A stretch of DNA of 64,000 nt from Streptomyces thinghirensis. GTDB taxonomy: Bacteria; Actinomycetota; Actinomycetia; Streptomycetales; Streptomycetaceae. The DNA lies in contig JAKFGP010000008.1 in assembly GCA_021502835.1 (NCBI GenBank), positions 124,001 to 188,000 on the forward strand, written 5' to 3'. The notes beneath the pieces are model-generated. The model did not search any database and had not been told where the DNA came from. It saw only the letters and a list, made by a program, of their open reading frames with translations. Below, one piece after another: positions 5,845-32,969 of this stretch; position 1 is the stretch's first letter, and every line of letters begins with the position of its first letter. The position numbers and the translations under genes are program-made.

Positions 5845-6897
5845 TCAGTTGCCGGTGGCCGACTTCCAGGCGTCGATGTAGGACGTGAGGTTCTTCTCGA
5901 TGTCGTCCCAGTCGGGTTCGAAGACCTCCACGCCGTCCATCAGCTTGGTGAGCGCGATGGCGTTGGCGTCGGTGGCCTTGACGTCCTGGCGGGCCGCGAA
6001 GCCGCCGCCGATCTCGCTGACCTGCTGCTGGGCCTTCTGGCTCAGCATGTAGTCGAGGAGCTTCTTGCCGTTCTCGCTGTGCGGGCGTCGGTCACGAGTC
6101 CGGCGGCGTAGGGCAGGGCGAAGGTGGTGGGCTTGCCGCCCTCGCGGGCCGGGAACCAGATGCCGAGGTTCGGCATGGACTTGGACTGGGCGTAGTTCAT
6201 CTGGACGTCGCCGTTGGCGACCAGGAGTTCGCCCTTGTCGACCTTGGGGGCGAGCTTGCCGGTGGAGGCGGACGGGCCGACGTTGTTGGCCTGGAGCTTC
6301 TCCAGGTACTCCATGGCGGGCTTCTCGCCGCCGAAGTCGTGCATGGCCTTGATGAGGACGGCGGTGCCGTCGCCGGCGACGCCGGGGGTGGAGTACTGGA
6401 GCTTGTTCTCGTACTTGCCGTCGAGCAGGTCCTCCCCAGGTGGTGGGGGCCTGCTTCAGCTCCTTCTTGTTGTGGATGAAGCCGAAGTAGTTGTTGACGA
6501 CGGCGGTCCAGGTGCCGTTCGCGGCCTTGTCGGCGCCAAGCTGACCCGGTCGACGCCCTGGGGGCGTACTTCTGGAGCAGACCCTTGGTGTCGGCCTGCT
6601 GGATGAACGGCGGGAGGGGTGACGAGCACGTCGGCCTGCGGGTTGCGCTTCTCGCGGGTGGTGCGCTGCACCATCTCGCCGGAGCCGCCCTCCACGTACT
6701 CGACCTTGACGCCGGTCTCCTCTCGAAGTCCTCGAAGACCTGGTCGTACCAGCCGTCGCCGTTCTCGCCCTTGAGGCCGTCGGCGCTGTAGACGGTGACG
6801 ACGTTCTCGTCGGAGGCGGCGGAGGTGCCGCCGCAGGCGGTCAGGGGAGGGCGAGGAGGCAGAGGGCGGCGAGCGGCTTGGCGGGGTTCCTGGGCAT
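5845..6897 (-). CDS. ABC transporter substrate-binding protein, 2-aminoethylphosphonate/iron type
   Basis: MPRNPAKPL begins a lipoprotein signal with lipobox LTACGG. The mature protein starts [14 protein letters not shown] and has [20 protein letters not shown], a fold related to ferric and 2-aminoethylphosphonate (PhnS-like) binding proteins. It ends [19 protein letters not shown]. The neighbouring phosphonatase-like HAD and HpnW-type oxidoreductase favour an aminophosphonate ligand (inference). AAGGAG precedes the ATG. It is the last gene of the minus-strand operon and is separated from the permease genes by a 190-bp palindromic element. Indels occur near 6090, 6435, 6540-6620, 6720 and 6845. 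Confidence 0.85.
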
Positions 6898-26447: not shown

Positions 26448-27112
26448 ATGATTCGCGCAGTGATTTTCGATGTCGGTGAGTGTCTGGTGGACGAGACCCG
26501 GGAGTACGGGACGTGGGCGGACTGGATCGGAGTACCGCGCCACACCTTCCATGCCATGTTCGGCGCCGTGATCGCCCAGGCCGCGACTACCGCGAGACCT
26601 TCCAGGAGTTTCGGCCCCGGCTTCGATCTCTACGCAGAACGCGAGAAGAGAGCAGCCGCCGGTCAGCCCGGAGTCTTTCGGTGAAGATGAGCTGTATGGG
26701 GACGTCCGAGCGTCCCTTCGACGACTTCGGGCTGACGGACTGTGGCTCGGCATCGCAGGCAACCAGGACAGTGCGCGCAGGACGCATCCTCCGCGAGCTC
26801 TTCTCCGCGGACGTCGACCTGATCGGTACCTCCGACGACTGGGGCGCGAGTAAGCCCGACCCCGAGTTCTTCAAGCGCGTGGCCGAAGCGGTGCCCTTCG
26901 ATGTCGACGAGATTCTGTACGCCGGTGACCGCTGTGACAACGACATACGGCCGGCGCGCGAGGCGGGCATGCACGCCGCGCTCGTGCGTCGTGGGCCTTG
27001 GGCCACTATTCAGTGGGACAGCGACGAGGCCAGGAAACTGCCGACCTTCCGCATCGACAGCCTCTCCGAACTGACCGACGCGATCGCACGGTTCAACGAC
27101 TCAGCGCGCTGA
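26448..27112 (+). CDS. HAD family hydrolase
   Basis: Motif I is VIFDVGECLVDE, the cap begins RDYRETFQEF, motif II region LWLGIAGNQ, and the C-terminal motifs are SDDWGASKPDPEFFKRVAE and ILYAGDRCDNDIRPAREAGMHAALVRRGPW. This is the FMN phosphatase/haloacid dehalogenase-like branch; substrate unknown. Indels near 26580, 26670 and 26770. Its 3' end overlaps by 20 nt the end of the convergent XRE regulator gene. Confidence 0.85.
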
Positions 27113-28365
27113 CCGTCGTCGACCAGTCGTACAGACGGTCGTCCAGGTCGCGGACGCAGCGCTCGTGCTGGTGAGGGGTGAGGGCGCGACGGACCTCGCG
27201 CACCCGGTCCATGCCGGTCGCGTACCAAGTGAGCGCCAGCTGATCGAGGGCCTGTCTCGCGTACGCGCAAGCTCCCTCGGCGTTGCCGGAAGCGGCCTCG
27301 ACAGCGGCCAGATCGCCGTACACGACGGTGCGTTGTTTCTCCTCGCCGGTCGTCATGGCTTCGAGGGCCTCCAACAGTGTTTCGCGAGCCTGCGGAAGAT
27401 GACCCGCGAGCAGTTGGGTATTGCCCTTGAAGGCCGAGAGCCTGGCCGAGGAGAACCAGTCCATCCACTCAGGTGACCGGTGCTCGCTGCCGCCCCCCAG
27501 GACGTCTTCTGCGTGGCCGATCAGGTGCAGAGCGGTGCGAGTGTCACCACATCTCGTTTCGCACTCGGCCTCGACCGCGTCCAGCCAGGCCAGGAACTCG
27601 GCCGACGCGGGAGCGCGGCGTGCGTATGTGCGTGCGGCGATCATGCGCTCGAGAGCCGCGTCACGGTCTCCGGCCCAACCGGGAATGAAGGCCATGTGCG
27701 CGGTGATCGCCGAACCAAGCAGCGGAGCGTCGGCTTCGCCCGCCGATTGCAGGGCCAATAGAAGTGCCTCGTGTGCGAAGCCGGCTCGCGCAGATCGAAG
27801 AACTCGATCCGCCCTGCCAGGAGGTACGTCTCCGCCAGCGCTGCCGCGATCACTCGGCGTGTGGGTTCCGCGGCCTCCGGGAGCAAGGCGCAGCCCAGCG
27901 TTGCATGGGCCATGACGGCAGGATGAAGTTTGGCCGGAGCGACCGACCAATAGGAGCCGCCGGTGGGACTTGGTGACTGCCTCGAAGTCAGTCCCGACGG
28001 TGACCGGTTGAGGAGCCGCGACGGCTCGACCAGGCGTCACTGCGAGCCCCATGGCGGCCGCTCCCCCGTGACGAGTGTGCGACGCACCGGGGCGGTTTTC
28101 GGTCCGTCGGAACCCCACGGCGGAGCGAACCCGAGCGCCTCCATGCTCTGACCCAGCAGGTGCGTGAGTACACGCTGGCAATCCGGCTGCGGCCACGGAG
28201 GGTTGTCCGACTCCCAACGACGAACCTGTCGCGCCCCGATGGACAGGCCGCGAGGCCCATGCCTTCGGCGTGTTCCGTGAGGGCGTCGGCCAGGTCTTGC
28301 TGCGAGTTGAACCCGGCTGCTACGCGCGCGGCTTTGAGTCGGACGTTGCCTGTCGGCCTGGACAC
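27093..28365 (-). CDS. XRE family regulator with TPR-like C-terminal domain, divergent from the tgm cluster
   Basis: A helix-turn-helix domain (RLKAARVAAGFNSQQDLADALTEHAE, IGARQVRRWESDNP, LTHLLGQSMEALGF) is followed by a large alpha-helical region of repeats (GDRDAALERMIAARTYARRAPASAEF, RTALHLIGHAEDVL, VYGDLAAVEAASGNAEGACAYARQAL). Such Xre-TPR regulators often neighbour the ATP-grasp RiPP clusters of actinomycetes, as here. The GTG at 28365 has GGGAGG eight to nine bases upstream. Indels near 27775, 27935, 28035 and 28250. Confidence 0.8.
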
Positions 28366-28554
28366 GGTCACCTCCCGATGACGGCTGCTGAGTCGAGCCT
28401 CCCACAGTAGGTCCGGTACGCGACCCGTCATCCCCCTAGGTGGCCATTGACGTCCTATCCGAGCCCTTTAGGGGCCCATGAAAGTCCTCGGGAGGACCTT
28501 TCTGGAGGAAGCTGATCGACACACCCCATCGCGATCGATCGCAGGAGGCAGACT

Positions 28555-29086
28555 GTGTTCACACAGGAGGCTCTCGACAGAGCCATCTCCGAGTGGCTCG
28601 CCCGCAGTGCCCCGAGTCCGGAGCGGGCTCGGCGGGAATGGACCGACCAGGGCGTCGCGCTGCTGCCGCTCGGTGAGCGGTTCGCGGCTGTGCGCATGAC
28701 CGCACGTGTCGTTCACGCCGCTGTTGAGTCCGAGGACAGGGACCGAGTCGCAGTCGCACTTGGCGAGTTGCTCGGAGGGTCGATCATCCACGACCGTCGA
28801 GTGGCGGGCGGTACGTACTACGCGCTGATCCAAGGGCATACCGCTTCAGTGTGGGCGTACGACGACATCGTGACCTGCCTCGGCAGCGGCACCTACCTGG
28901 GAGTTCCCCGAATCGACCGGCAACAGCCCCCCCTGGCACGTACTGGGTCGTCCCGCCACGGTACGAAGGTGATCTGTGCGCCCCGCGAGCGATCACCACG
29001 CTGGTGCGAGACGGGCGAGCACGACTGGCACAGCAAGTCGGACAGACCCGGGTTCTCGCGTCCCTTTGGCCGACGAAACGGAGTGA
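28555..29086 (+). CDS. uncharacterised protein upstream of the tgm precursor gene
   Basis: A GTG start with AGGAGG seven bases upstream opens MFTQEALDRAISEWLARSAPSPERARREW. The protein of about 176 residues has a helical N-terminus and a C-terminal part with TYWVVPPRYEGDL and ITTLVRDGRARLAQQVGQ. The stop TGA at 29084-29086 requires indels near 28925 and 29055. I recognise no family. It ends 4 bp before the RiPP precursor and so is probably in the same operon. Confidence 0.65.
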
Positions 29087-29090
29087 GCGG

Positions 29091-29363
29091 ATGGTCACCG
29101 CGACGACACAGGCCCCTTGGGCACTCAGGTTGGTCACCAACCGCTCGCCACAACCCCCCACTCCTTACGCGAACGTCGCCCTCGACGCCACCACCCAGGC
29201 CGCCCTCTACACCGACGCCTCCGGGCGCGTGGTCGAGATGGGCAGACACGGGACGTCGAGGACGAGTAGTACGGCGTCCGTGTCCGGTGGCGGGGACGGG
29301 GACGGGCAGCAGCCTCAGCCCCAGTCGCAGGACGACACGACGACCGACTACGAGTCGGACTGA
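29091..29363 (+). CDS. tgmA: TgmA-type ATP-grasp-modified RiPP precursor peptide
   Basis: An intact 90-residue frame. The leader contains APWALRLVTNR, then PYANVALDATTQAALYTDASGRVVEMGRHGTS, the conserved stretch of putative ATP-grasp-modified RiPP precursors (TIGR04186 type). The C-terminal 30 residues are rich in Gly, Gln, Pro and Ser and end in DDTTTDYESD, with Thr next to Asp/Glu, as expected for side-chain ester or amide linkages made by an ATP-grasp ligase. GGAG precedes the ATG. The ligase gene starts three bases after its stop. Confidence 0.88.
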   Translation: MVTATTQAPWALRLVTNRSPQPPTPYANVALDATTQAALYTDASGRVVEMGRHGTSRTSSTASVSGGGDGDGQQPQPQSQDDTTTDYESD

Positions 29364-29366
29364 CTG

Positions 29367-30375
29367 ATGGCGCACACCGTTCTGGTCGTCACCGCTTTGG
29401 AAGACGTGACCGCGGACTGGGTCATCGGCGCGCTCAACGAGCGTGAGGTGCCCGTCGTGAGGTTCGACCCCGCAGACATCGGGCCGGAGCTGACCTTCGG
29501 GTTCCGTCTCGGGGGCGACAGGCCGGTCTGGGGCGGCCGGCTGCGTACGACGAGCCGGGAGTGGATCTCGGGGAGGTGGGGGCGGTCTACCATCGTCGCC
29601 CCACGCCCTACGCCACCCGGTTCGGGCAGCTGCCCGCGCAGCAGCGAGAGTTCGCCGTGGCCGAGGCGAGGCACGGGCTGGGTGGCGTCCTGCGCAGTCT
29701 GTATCCCGCCCTGTTCGTCAACCACCCGTCGGCCGTGACGCGGGCGGAGTTCAAGCCGTGGCAGTTGCGGCGATTCGCCGAACTCGGGCTGCGGGTTCCC
29801 GCCACGCTCGTCACCAATGACGTAGAAGAGGCCCGGAGGTTCGCCAGCGGAGTACGAGTCCGTCGTCTGCAAGACGTTCCGGGGGCTGCCACGCGAGGAG
29901 GACGGGTGCGTCGGCGCGATCTGGACCCATCGCGTTGACCGCTGAGACTTCGACACGTCGCTCGCGGTGACGGCTCACCTGTTCCAGGCGGAGGTTCCGA
30001 AGACCGGTGACGTCCGGGTCACCGTGGTCGGGCGTCGCGGCCTTCGCGCAGCGCATCGGCACCCGCGGCAGGCGTCATCGACTGGCGTCGTGGCGACCGG
30101 AACGAACTGACCCACACCCGATCACCGTTCCGCCGGCGATCGTGGCGGCCCTGCACAGCTACCTGGCCTCGTTCGGCCTGGCCTTCGGCTGCTTCGACTT
30201 CGCGCTCACCGGTAACGGGACCACTCCGGACGACTGGTGGGCGATCGAGTGCAACCCGAACGGACAGTGGGGCTGGCTTCCGGACGCACCGGCCATCGCT
30301 GAGGCGTTCGCCGACATTCTGAGCACGGAAAGTACGGAATGTATGGAAAGTACGGAAGGACGTGTCAGGTCATGA
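29367..30375 (+). CDS. tgmB: TgmB-type ATP-grasp ribosomal peptide maturase
   Basis: The N-terminal pre-ATP-grasp domain is TVLVVTALEDVTADWVIGALNEREVPVVRFD. Then come AVYHRRPTPYATRF, VNHPSAVTRAEFKPWQLRRFAELGL and VCKTFRGLPREE (ATP-binding Lys). The C-terminus has FDFALTG and the metal-binding IECNPNGQWGWLPDA. This is the TIGR04187/MvdD-like graspetide synthetase class that couples Ser/Thr/Lys side chains to Asp/Glu in the precursor. Indels near 29560, 29855, 29940 and 30040. Its TGA overlaps the methyltransferase ATG as ATGA. Confidence 0.87.
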
Positions 30376-31613
30376 CGATGCCCGCCGATCTCGACAACGA
30401 CGCGGCCGCACTGCGCGAAGCGCTGACGAAGTCCTTCGCCGAGACCCGGGGCCCGGTCGACCCGGCCTGGCCGGCGACCGTGGCGAGGGTGCCCCGCCAT
30501 GTCTTCGTCCCCGGCTTCTACCCGACCGCGGACGAGCGCGACGGGGCCTGACGGTGTGGGAGCCGGTCACGGCCGACATCGACTACGGGCGGTGGCTTGC
30601 CGCCGCCTACTCGGACGCAACGCTGATCACGCAGCTCGACGGCGAGGAGGTCGACTGGAGGAACCCGGCCGTCCGCCATGGCGGCGCGCCCACGTCCCCT
30701 CCTCCACGCTGCCCTCCCTGGTCCTGCGCATGTGGTCGGACGCCGACGTCACCGAGGGGCACACCGTCCTGGAGATCGGAACGGGGACGGGTTACTCGAC
30801 GGCGCTCGCGCGAGCGGCCGGGGTCGTCCCACGTGACCAGCGTCGAGGTCGATTCCGACAGGCTCGAGGCGGCGGCCGGTGCCCGTTACGGCTGCGGGTA
30901 CACGCCGACACTGCGCGGGCGGACGGACTGTACGGGTACTGGCCCGAGGCCTGGTTCGACCGGATCGTGGCCGCCTGTTCCTTCCGGTCGGTGCCGCCCG
31001 CTCTGCTCAGTCAGACCCGCCCCGGTGGGAAGGTTCTACTCCCTCTGTCGGGCTGGCTCTACGGCAGCGCCCGCGTCCTGCTCACCGTCGCCGGGGACGG
31101 CACCGCCGAGGGCCCTTGCTGCCCGGCACCATCTCCTTCATGCCCGCCCGGACCCATGCGGCACCGGCGTACGGGAATCCCGCGGACTGGCCGCAGGACT
31201 GCACGAGAGACCCCGGTCCGCGCGGCACGACCCCGGGCGCCTCATGGACGCGACCGAGGAGGCTTTCCACCTGCGGTTCCTGGCCCCAGAGTGCCGTACC
31301 GAACGCTCAAATGGTCACCATCGACGGGGTACTGCACCTGATCGACGTGGTCTCCGGTTCCCGCCGCCGCCCCTCACTCCCGACGGCGGTCACCGGAGTG
31401 TCCGGGAAGGCGGTCCGCTAGTTGTGGAGCCGGATCGAGCACTTCGTCGAGGCCTTCGACGCCGCGGGGCGGCCCGGACCCGGAGACGTACACACCGCGG
31501 GTGGACGGCGACGGACAACGATTGCTGCACTCGCGGGTACCTCCCCGCGACTGCCCCAGGGGTACTGGATCAGCCGGAAGCCTGAGCTCAGCGGGCCGCC
31601 CATGTCCCCCTAA
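30372..31613 (+). CDS. tgmC: TgmC-type methyltransferase of the ATP-grasp peptide maturase system
   Basis: The N-terminus MTMPADLDNDAAALREAL precedes VPRHVFVPGFYP and a PIMT-like core with motif I VLEIGTGTGYSTALA, VTSVEVDSDRL and PGGKVLLPLSGWLYG. The TIGR04188 family of L-isoaspartyl methyltransferase homologues acts with TgmA/TgmB, probably on Asp residues of the modified peptide. It continues with LIDVVSGS and WSRIEHFVEAFDAAGRP. The gene has many indels (about 30545, 30685, 30820, 30910, 31110, 31215, 31290, 31365, 31420), so the true stop may lie anywhere from 31585 to 31654. Confidence 0.82.
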
Positions 31614-31682
31614 CACCGGTGACGTCCGGAAGGACTGGGCATACACAGTGACGTGAGGTGCTGTGGGCGGCGGGGGGATTGA

Positions 31683-32383
31683 GATGTTCGGTCGGCGGAT
31701 CGGTCCGTTGGCCCTGTGGCCGTGGATCAGACCGGGCGCGGGGGCTGGTCTCCGCGGACCTGCGTGGCGCCTGGCTGTACTGGGCGCGGTTGCGTAGGGG
31801 CCGACCTGCGGCTGGCCCGCATGCAAAGGGTCCACCTGTCCTGGGCCGACTTGTCAGGTGCGAGGCTGGACGGCGCCCACATGTACGAGGCAGGGCTCCG
31901 GCGCGCGAAGTTGCGGGGTGCGTCCCTCACCGGCGCGTTCCTGAAGGGCGCGGATCTCATGAACGCGCGGTTGTCGGACGCCGACCTGACGGGTGCCGGA
32001 TCTCTCGGAGCGAGGCTGGTGGGTGCGGATCTGCGGGGTGCGAACCTCTCGCGGGCGAACCTGTTCCGGGCGGACCTGACCGGAGCCGACCTCTCTCGTG
32101 CCGGCCTGCGCGGCGCGACCCTGTTCAGCACGCACATCCAGGTCGCGGACATGAGGGGGTGCGGATCTGAGCGGCGCCTCTGGACTACCTGGGGTCGCGC
32201 ATCGTGGCTCTCTTCGAGACACACTCCCGCACGGGCATCCTCATGTCGCTGCGCTGGTCGTCCAGCACACGCTGGCCGGGACTGTGGAGCGCCGAGAGGA
32301 TTCGCGAGTACTCGGAAGAGACCGCGCCGGGCGAGTGGCAGGTGACGCGTAGGAGGGGCGAGCCGCCCGGTCCTCGCGGCTGA
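31683..32383 (+). CDS. pentapeptide-repeat protein
   Basis: About 20 tandem A(D/N)LxG-type repeats can be read: LRGAWLYWARL, LSWADLSGARLDGAHMYEAGL, GADLRGANLSRANLFRADLTGADLS. These form a right-handed quadrilateral beta-helix. The C-terminal tail, RIVALFETHSRTG to EETAPGEWQVTRRR, is non-repetitive. The product has no obvious catalytic site and may be a partner or DNA mimic, but that is speculative. The start ATG at 31683 is weakly supported. Indels near 31735, 31795, 32005 and 32160-32200. It follows the tgm cluster in the same direction. Confidence 0.78.
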
Positions 32384-32451
32384 CGGGGCCGGTGCGTGGG
32401 TCGGCCGCACATCGAGTACGGCGACTCGGTCATCGGGCCATCGGAAGCATT

Positions 32452-32507
32452 GGCCCATCGGCCCATCGGCCCATCGGCCCATCGGCCCATCGGCCCATCG
32501 GCCCATC
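32452..32507. repeat. octanucleotide tandem repeat (7 x GGCCCATC)
   Basis: Seven perfect head-to-tail copies of GGCCCATC, with degenerate copies just upstream (CATCGGGCCATCGG at 32431-32444). It lies 69 bp downstream of the pentapeptide-repeat gene and outside any supported gene. The number of copies may be variable or misassembled. There are no unique spacers, so it is not a CRISPR array. Confidence 0.9.
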
Positions 32508-32969
32508 GGGCCAGGGCACGGCGACTGACCGGCCTATCAGCGTGGCATCCGTCCCGCCAACACTCTTTTCCAGCCAAAGGGCTTCGGCTGCCATCCGGGC
32601 ATTTTTCGCGTCAAACCTCCGGTGGTTCCGGCTCGTAGTCACGAGGCTGACACGACGTGTGAGCGCAAGCGGTATGGTCCCTTCCCGTACGTCGAACGCC
32701 GGTCGCGGGTTCAGGAGTTCGAGGCGGTACGGGTGCGCGGTCCTGTGCCGTTCCGAGTCCGCGTCGTCGTCGGCCCCCAGCTCGTACCGGCCCTTGCATG
32801 TCCTTGGAGGTCCATGTCGTGCGCCTGCCGCCGCCGGGCCGTTCCGGCCCTGTCGCGGTCCGCACGCGTCGCCGCACACATCGCCGCCCGCGGCCCCACC
32901 GCCTCCCCGGCCCCTCCGCGCCCTCGGCCCACTTCCCCACACCGACGGCTTCCGATCCGTGAGGACCTG
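32508..32969. other. 462-bp intergenic region upstream of the conservon
   Basis: No frame with consistent codon bias to the start of cvnA at 32970. It should contain the conservon promoter. I could not identify a convincing -10/-35 pair or operator. Confidence 0.5.

Follow-up and report, generated by a model that had tools for sequence, protein, structure and literature searches.

In a locus of Streptomyces thinghirensis the precursor of a graspetide is rather likely to be made as the tail of a protein of about 268 residues with two domains, the first of which has a predicted Prim-Pol-like fold. The locus lies in a stretch of 64,000 nucleotides of contig JAKFGP010000008.1 (assembly GCA_021502835.1, positions 124,001 to 188,000), referred to here as the window, and from its sequence is a group 13 graspetide (graspimiditide) locus. 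The pathway itself is of a known kind; what is new is the fusion of the precursor and the family of the upstream domain, which we call UP. In the open-licence literature we found no publication on either the fusion or the UP family, and the passages of PMC8939145 that deal with fused proteins mention no fusion of a precursor to a domain. The precursors of ribosomally synthesised and post-translationally modified peptides (RiPPs) are usually taken to be short leader–core peptides, and genome mining could miss or mis-annotate a conserved clade where the precursor forms the end of a folded domain. Such a clade is also a natural test of how well the graspetide enzymes tolerate a large N-terminal cargo.

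The locus comprises a divergent regulator of the NsdA type, followed by the Prim-Pol-like domain, a linker, the leader and the core, then an ATP-grasp ligase and a methyltransferase. A preliminary description of this DNA had assigned the cluster to the Tgm-type graspetides and had made the assignment depend on a match of the precursor to TIGR04186. That match was found for the 90-residue precursor as delimited there (29,091–29,363, forward strand; 68.5 bits, cut-off 25), together with one to PF14408 (65.8 bits, cut-off 25), and the two enzymes match TIGR04187 and TIGR04188. The tight packing described at the same time also holds, with 3 bp between the precursor and the start of the ATP-grasp gene at 29,367 and an ATGA overlap at 30,372–30,375. 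Both enzyme genes are broken in frame. The ATP-grasp graspetide synthetase (29,367–30,375, forward strand) is found as three pieces in different frames, with 64.0, 120.4 and 80.3 bits to positions 1–60, 62–157 and 218–311 of the 312 of TIGR04187, which cover most of the profile; none alone reaches the cut-off of 350, although relatives do (440.5 bits for L072 and 380.7 for L013). The PIMT-like methyltransferase (30,372–31,613, forward strand, the end being approximate) is similarly split over different frames that together cover much of TIGR04188 (21.2, 149.2 and 21.9 bits to positions 12–38, 82–232 and 226–309 of 363), each below the cut-off of 380 that the relative L019 passes with 434 bits, and it also matches PF01135 (47.5 bits). 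The ATP-grasp pieces set the locus apart from pamtides and imiditides, where the methyltransferase stands without an ATP-grasp enzyme. With the graspimiditides fuscimiditide, amycolimiditide, albusimiditide and SsfA(BM) it shares a TIGR04186-type precursor followed by ATP-grasp and PIMT-like methyltransferase genes, three Thr residues, a Gly-rich loop with Asp-Gly and a C-terminal cluster of Asp. It differs from them in the in-frame fusion of its precursor to the Prim-Pol-like domain; PMC13003496 describes a short precursor, ThfA, with a leader of 67 residues and a core of 22.

The N-terminal part of the UP domain lies at 28,555–28,938 on the forward strand, is conserved to about 28,923 and has 80 homologues at E ≤ 1e-3, the best of them 84% identical. 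A separate protein of 176 residues had been placed here, immediately ahead of the precursor. This is not a closed open reading frame (ORF), as the frame shifts near 28,924–28,934 and is then open without a stop through 29,363. The ORF at 28,851–29,363 takes the conserved C-terminus of the UP domain into the whole of the precursor, such that from 28,926 to 29,363 (forward strand) the end of the domain, the linker, the leader and the core follow one another with no stop at the junction and with the TIGR04186 match in the same frame.

Fusions of this kind recur amongst relatives. When one fused protein was used to query the database, 111 proteins were retrieved, and 32 of these, counting the query, are fused; S. 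collinus is an example of a strain with the fusion. A clade of 25 among the 158 rows of a tree is wholly fused (Shimodaira–Hasegawa-like approximate likelihood ratio test value of 99); in it, L013 is open only until an assembly gap is reached, and some genomes appear both as a protein and as a locus. The clade containing the window has 21 rows: nine fused, seven separate, three loci that lack the ATP-grasp gene, one locus in which no graspetide gene was detected and the window itself. Among the seven separate rows P0109 continues into the precursor out of frame, and the proteins P0002 and P0004 terminate in an ATP-grasp-like tail. UP lies directly upstream of the precursor in nine distinct genomes, in frame in seven (L002, L018, L019, L020, L122, L126 and, to its gap, L013) and not in frame in the other two, L015 and L016. 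The junction of L013 at about 6,780–6,830, beside a scaffold gap, is unreliable because the sequence there contains what looks like a transposase adapter used in library preparation.

It is possible, though we think it somewhat unlikely, that this is an ordinary graspimiditide whose precursor is made separately from the ATG at 29,091, with the stop-free junction a neutral accident of tight gene packing. A GGAG that may act as an internal ribosome-binding site lies 7 nt ahead of that ATG (29,080–29,083, forward strand), AAGGAG precedes the ATG in L002, a locus of Streptomyces sp. CB02414 with open frames, and the unfused relatives L015 and L016 have an ATG of their own. Furthermore, precursors of about 80% identity occur without a UP gene within 5.4 kb upstream, and the linker of the fusion is unconstrained. 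Against this stand the 25-row clade, all of it fused, and the fate of the precursor's own start. At this column of the alignment, 15 of the 31 fused rows have Met, three have Val and 13 have another letter or a gap, as counted in protein rows, where GTG or TTG starts would escape. We read the 13 losses as several independent events (one group with Lys; Thr in P0068, P0095 and P0103; a deletion common to P0105 and P0108; and the single cases P0099 and P0092). No Met is present within the 20 residues preceding the leader motif in six of these rows (P0068, P0084, P0088, P0095, P0099 and P0103); the remaining seven have one there, which in P0105 and P0108 falls inside the end of the UP domain itself. 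At the level of the DNA, this position reads ATG in L126 but AAG in both L018 and L122, and the ATG a few codons further upstream has, by eye, no obvious ribosome-binding site. Since the precursor's own start codon has gone in several lineages, the fused chain is most likely the source of the precursor there. In the window the GGAG and ATG at 29,080–29,093 leave room for a short form, which may be made in addition to the fused one.

The leader motif PWALRLVTNR (29,115–29,144, forward strand), in which P187, W188, L192 and R196 are invariant across the 31 fused relatives, is the likely counterpart of the RPFG motif of ThfA, a short key recognition sequence in a leader that is otherwise mostly an unstructured linker, according to PMC13003496. 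The ATP-grasp enzyme would be expected to bind at PWALR, just past the linker of the fusion. As the PW motif directly follows this linker, maturation could proceed in spite of the bulky N-terminal domain. The predicted core, HGTSRTSSTASVSGGGDGDGQQPQPQSQDDTTTDYESD (29,247–29,360, forward strand), has the graspimiditide pattern of a Thr–Asp stem-loop with an Asp-Gly in the loop. All the fused relatives keep the three Thr ahead of the loop, the Asp within it and four Asp of the C-terminus (D257, D258, D262 and D266 of P0100), and nearly all keep the Gly following the loop Asp. In the characterised members covered by PMC13001092, omega-esters link Thr and Asp within the stem-loop and the loop Asp-Gly is the site of methylation. 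Ring-forming Thr had previously been sought inside DDTTTDYESD; by analogy with those members the ester donors are more likely to be the three Thr of HGTSRTSST. Following the four characterised graspimiditides, the ATP-grasp enzyme would close about three omega-esters between these and the C-terminal Asp or Glu residues. The methyltransferase would then methylate the loop Asp-Gly, giving aspartimide or isoaspartate (cf. PMC13001092; PMC10787088), the candidate site being the Asp-Gly-Asp at 29,295–29,303 (forward strand; D247 of P0100, invariant in all 31 rows). In SsfA, as PMC10787088 reports, the methyl ester is transient and passes through the aspartimide (−18) to a mixture of isoaspartate and aspartate of unchanged mass. 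By this analogy the lasting +14 Da named in the preliminary description is the wrong mass signature for such a product. Release of the core would need a protease from outside the cluster. The window reads GGGDGDGQQ in the core (29,295–29,306), where the fused relatives have one Asp-Gly (in one of them Asp-Ala); the extra Asp-Gly is a six-base in-frame repeat, either genuine or an artefact of base calling.

The Streptomyces family of which the UP domain is a member has no curated name. The N-terminal piece from the window has no match in Pfam, PF09250 included, or in NCBIfam at E up to 1, and six members of the family have none in Pfam at E up to 10. A model of the family predicts a fold like that of Prim-Pol (PF09250; pRN1 ORF904); profile–profile comparison gave weak support, and by eye the order of motifs resembles that of degenerate Streptomyces proteins of PF09250. 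A model of the entire fused protein (predicted local distance difference test 53, predicted template-modelling score 0.44) was not used. Catalysis by Prim-Pol enzymes involves an acidic triad. In the alignment of 32 UP members D80 is the sole invariant acid, and catalysis of this kind is therefore unlikely. In each of six Streptomyces genomes picked for weak matches (L105–L110) there is one weak UP homologue of about 150 residues, perhaps a conserved protein related to the domain; that of L105 scores 17.2 bits against NF040464 (the SCO3374 family), where the cut-off is 110.

By investigating the surroundings of the domain in the species genomes we found that the UP family is broader than the graspetides. 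A precursor, ATP-grasp or methyltransferase gene was detectable nearby in 14 of 74 UP loci and in none of the other 60, a count made with queries from L002, which remote members may escape, and in which some loci end early. A regulator is present within 2.7 kb upstream of the domain in 65 of the 74, the best-match types being NsdA (27), helix-turn-helix (HTH) proteins with tetratricopeptide (TPR) repeats or alike (19), DUF5753 (9) and three further groups (10). Representatives of the HTH/TPR type, of DUF5753 and of two of the three further groups have a Pfam HTH match above cut-off, and the third (L058) falls just below; those of the NsdA type have no Pfam match, yet are above the NCBIfam cut-off. 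All 19 top-ranked loci (L002–L020) have both an NsdA-type regulator and a gene for a HAD-type hydrolase. This context suggests that the graspetide genes adjoin what looks like an older regulator–domain module, and the neighbouring genes point to regulation as the function of UP. As the family is a widespread neighbour of regulators without a curated name, the fusion offers a handle on its function.

At the scale of the genus, a match to TIGR04186 is present in 287 of 392 Streptomyces genomes and one to the UP alignment in 294, many of the latter matches being weak. The precursor is within about 2.1 kb of a UP match on the same strand in at least 12 cases (nine counted by eye, plus G004, G085 and G100). 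Conversely, a UP domain is found within 1.5 kb upstream for only four (G004, G010, G085 and G100) of 29 close precursors from 27 genomes. Two loci have other neighbours: in L062 (6,709–7,884) the UP family stands beside a TIGR04188-like methyltransferase (269 bits, cut-off 380) and in L064 (6,646–8,270) its neighbour is a radical SAM/SPASM protein, with a weak match to a methyltransferase after it; no ATP-grasp gene was detected in either.

The regulator of the window is on the reverse strand (27,093–28,431) and is also frame-broken. Its C-terminal piece (27,093–28,217) matches NF053720, a family of NsdA-type TPR-like regulators, with 154.4 bits against a cut-off of 75 (251.5 bits for the relative L004); no profile matched the N-terminal piece (27,988–28,431) or a further one at 27,641–27,913. 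A divergent regulator upstream had been correctly recognised, and the Xre-TPR label given to it is replaced by the NsdA family. The piece and L004 are far under the equivalog cut-offs of NsdA and NsdB proper (NF050130 and NF050135). As in the DUF397/DUF5753 pairs of actinomycetes, which according to PMC13097080 may be found together with graspetides of groups 11 and 13, a small protein stands beside an HTH regulator; unlike DUF397, to which it has no match, UP adjoins several families of regulator. Rather than a polymerase, the domain is probably a protein partner of the adjoining regulator, carried on the precursor. We put forward, as a speculation that we rate as rather doubtful, that it binds the NsdA-type regulator, that the fusion lets the regulator sense the level of unprocessed or modified precursor and that the domain, where it stands next to other families of HTH protein, is a general regulator-partner module of Streptomyces. 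If so, maturation of the peptide would report directly on the expression of its own gene, and a widespread module would have become joined to a RiPP precursor.

A role for UP as a biosynthetic partner dedicated to the ATP-grasp enzyme, comparable with MirC, the partner protein of rosaritide, is improbable. That the domain is directly linked, and fused, to the precursor would suit such a role, and graspetides that depend on a partner are among those treated in PMC13097080. However, close precursors occur without the domain, and neither the window piece nor six relatives match a peptidyl-prolyl isomerase or any other family. The 60 UP loci in which queries from L002 detected no graspetide gene led us to reject the more general reading of UP as a graspetide-specific enzyme, and they also tell against a dedicated partner.

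The window is collinear with contig C47 of G001 across most of its 64 kb. Leaving aside two secondary alignments at 71% identity and the window's 8–12 kb, which did not align, there are 211 length differences of 1–2 nt over 50,301 aligned window bases (about 4.2 per kb), and none of the 15 four-kb bins that have more than one aligned base is free of them. Because they are spread through the whole alignable window, the frame breaks most likely stem from the assembly, through poor base quality, and not from decay of the cluster. A decaying pseudo-cluster with frames broken in situ, as the two broken enzyme genes and the absence of most or all of the ATP-grasp gene from L003, L004 and L005 might suggest, is very unlikely given this spread and the good scores that the enzyme pieces retain against their own families.

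The nearest relative, Streptomyces sp. E2N166 (L004), lacks the stretch corresponding to about 29,164 to 30,360 of the window, that is most of the precursor including the core, and the ATP-grasp gene; a scaffold gap of 190 bases follows inside the methyltransferase. In L003 (6,400–7,800), L004 (6,400–8,030) and L005 (6,400–8,120) deletions have removed the ATP-grasp gene together with some or all of the precursor, and the methyltransferase frame stays open, interrupted in L004 by the scaffold gap. The ratio of non-synonymous to synonymous substitution rates of the methyltransferase is 0.20–0.29 in pairs with L003 or L005 and 0.10–0.27 in pairs among seven loci that keep the ATP-grasp gene, the two ranges overlapping. 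The loss could mark early decay, or a transition towards systems without ATP-grasp.

Ahead of the regulator is a frame-broken gene for a HAD-type hydrolase (26,448–27,112, forward strand), whose piece at 26,480–27,112 matches TIGR01549 (HAD-IA; 31.7 bits, cut-off 23.3). A homologue is present in 20 of the 74 relative loci, and it is probably a neighbour and not a member of the pathway. In G091 an identical precursor match of equal score occurs at 720–983 and at 9,238,148–9,238,411 of contig C1, near both ends of its approximately 9.2 Mb, as expected for terminal inverted repeats. Downstream of the cluster, a frame for a pentapeptide-repeat protein (31,716–32,345), for which every family match is under its cut-off, is followed at 32,431–32,513 by a tandem array of the 8-bp unit CATCGGCC in 10.2 copies.

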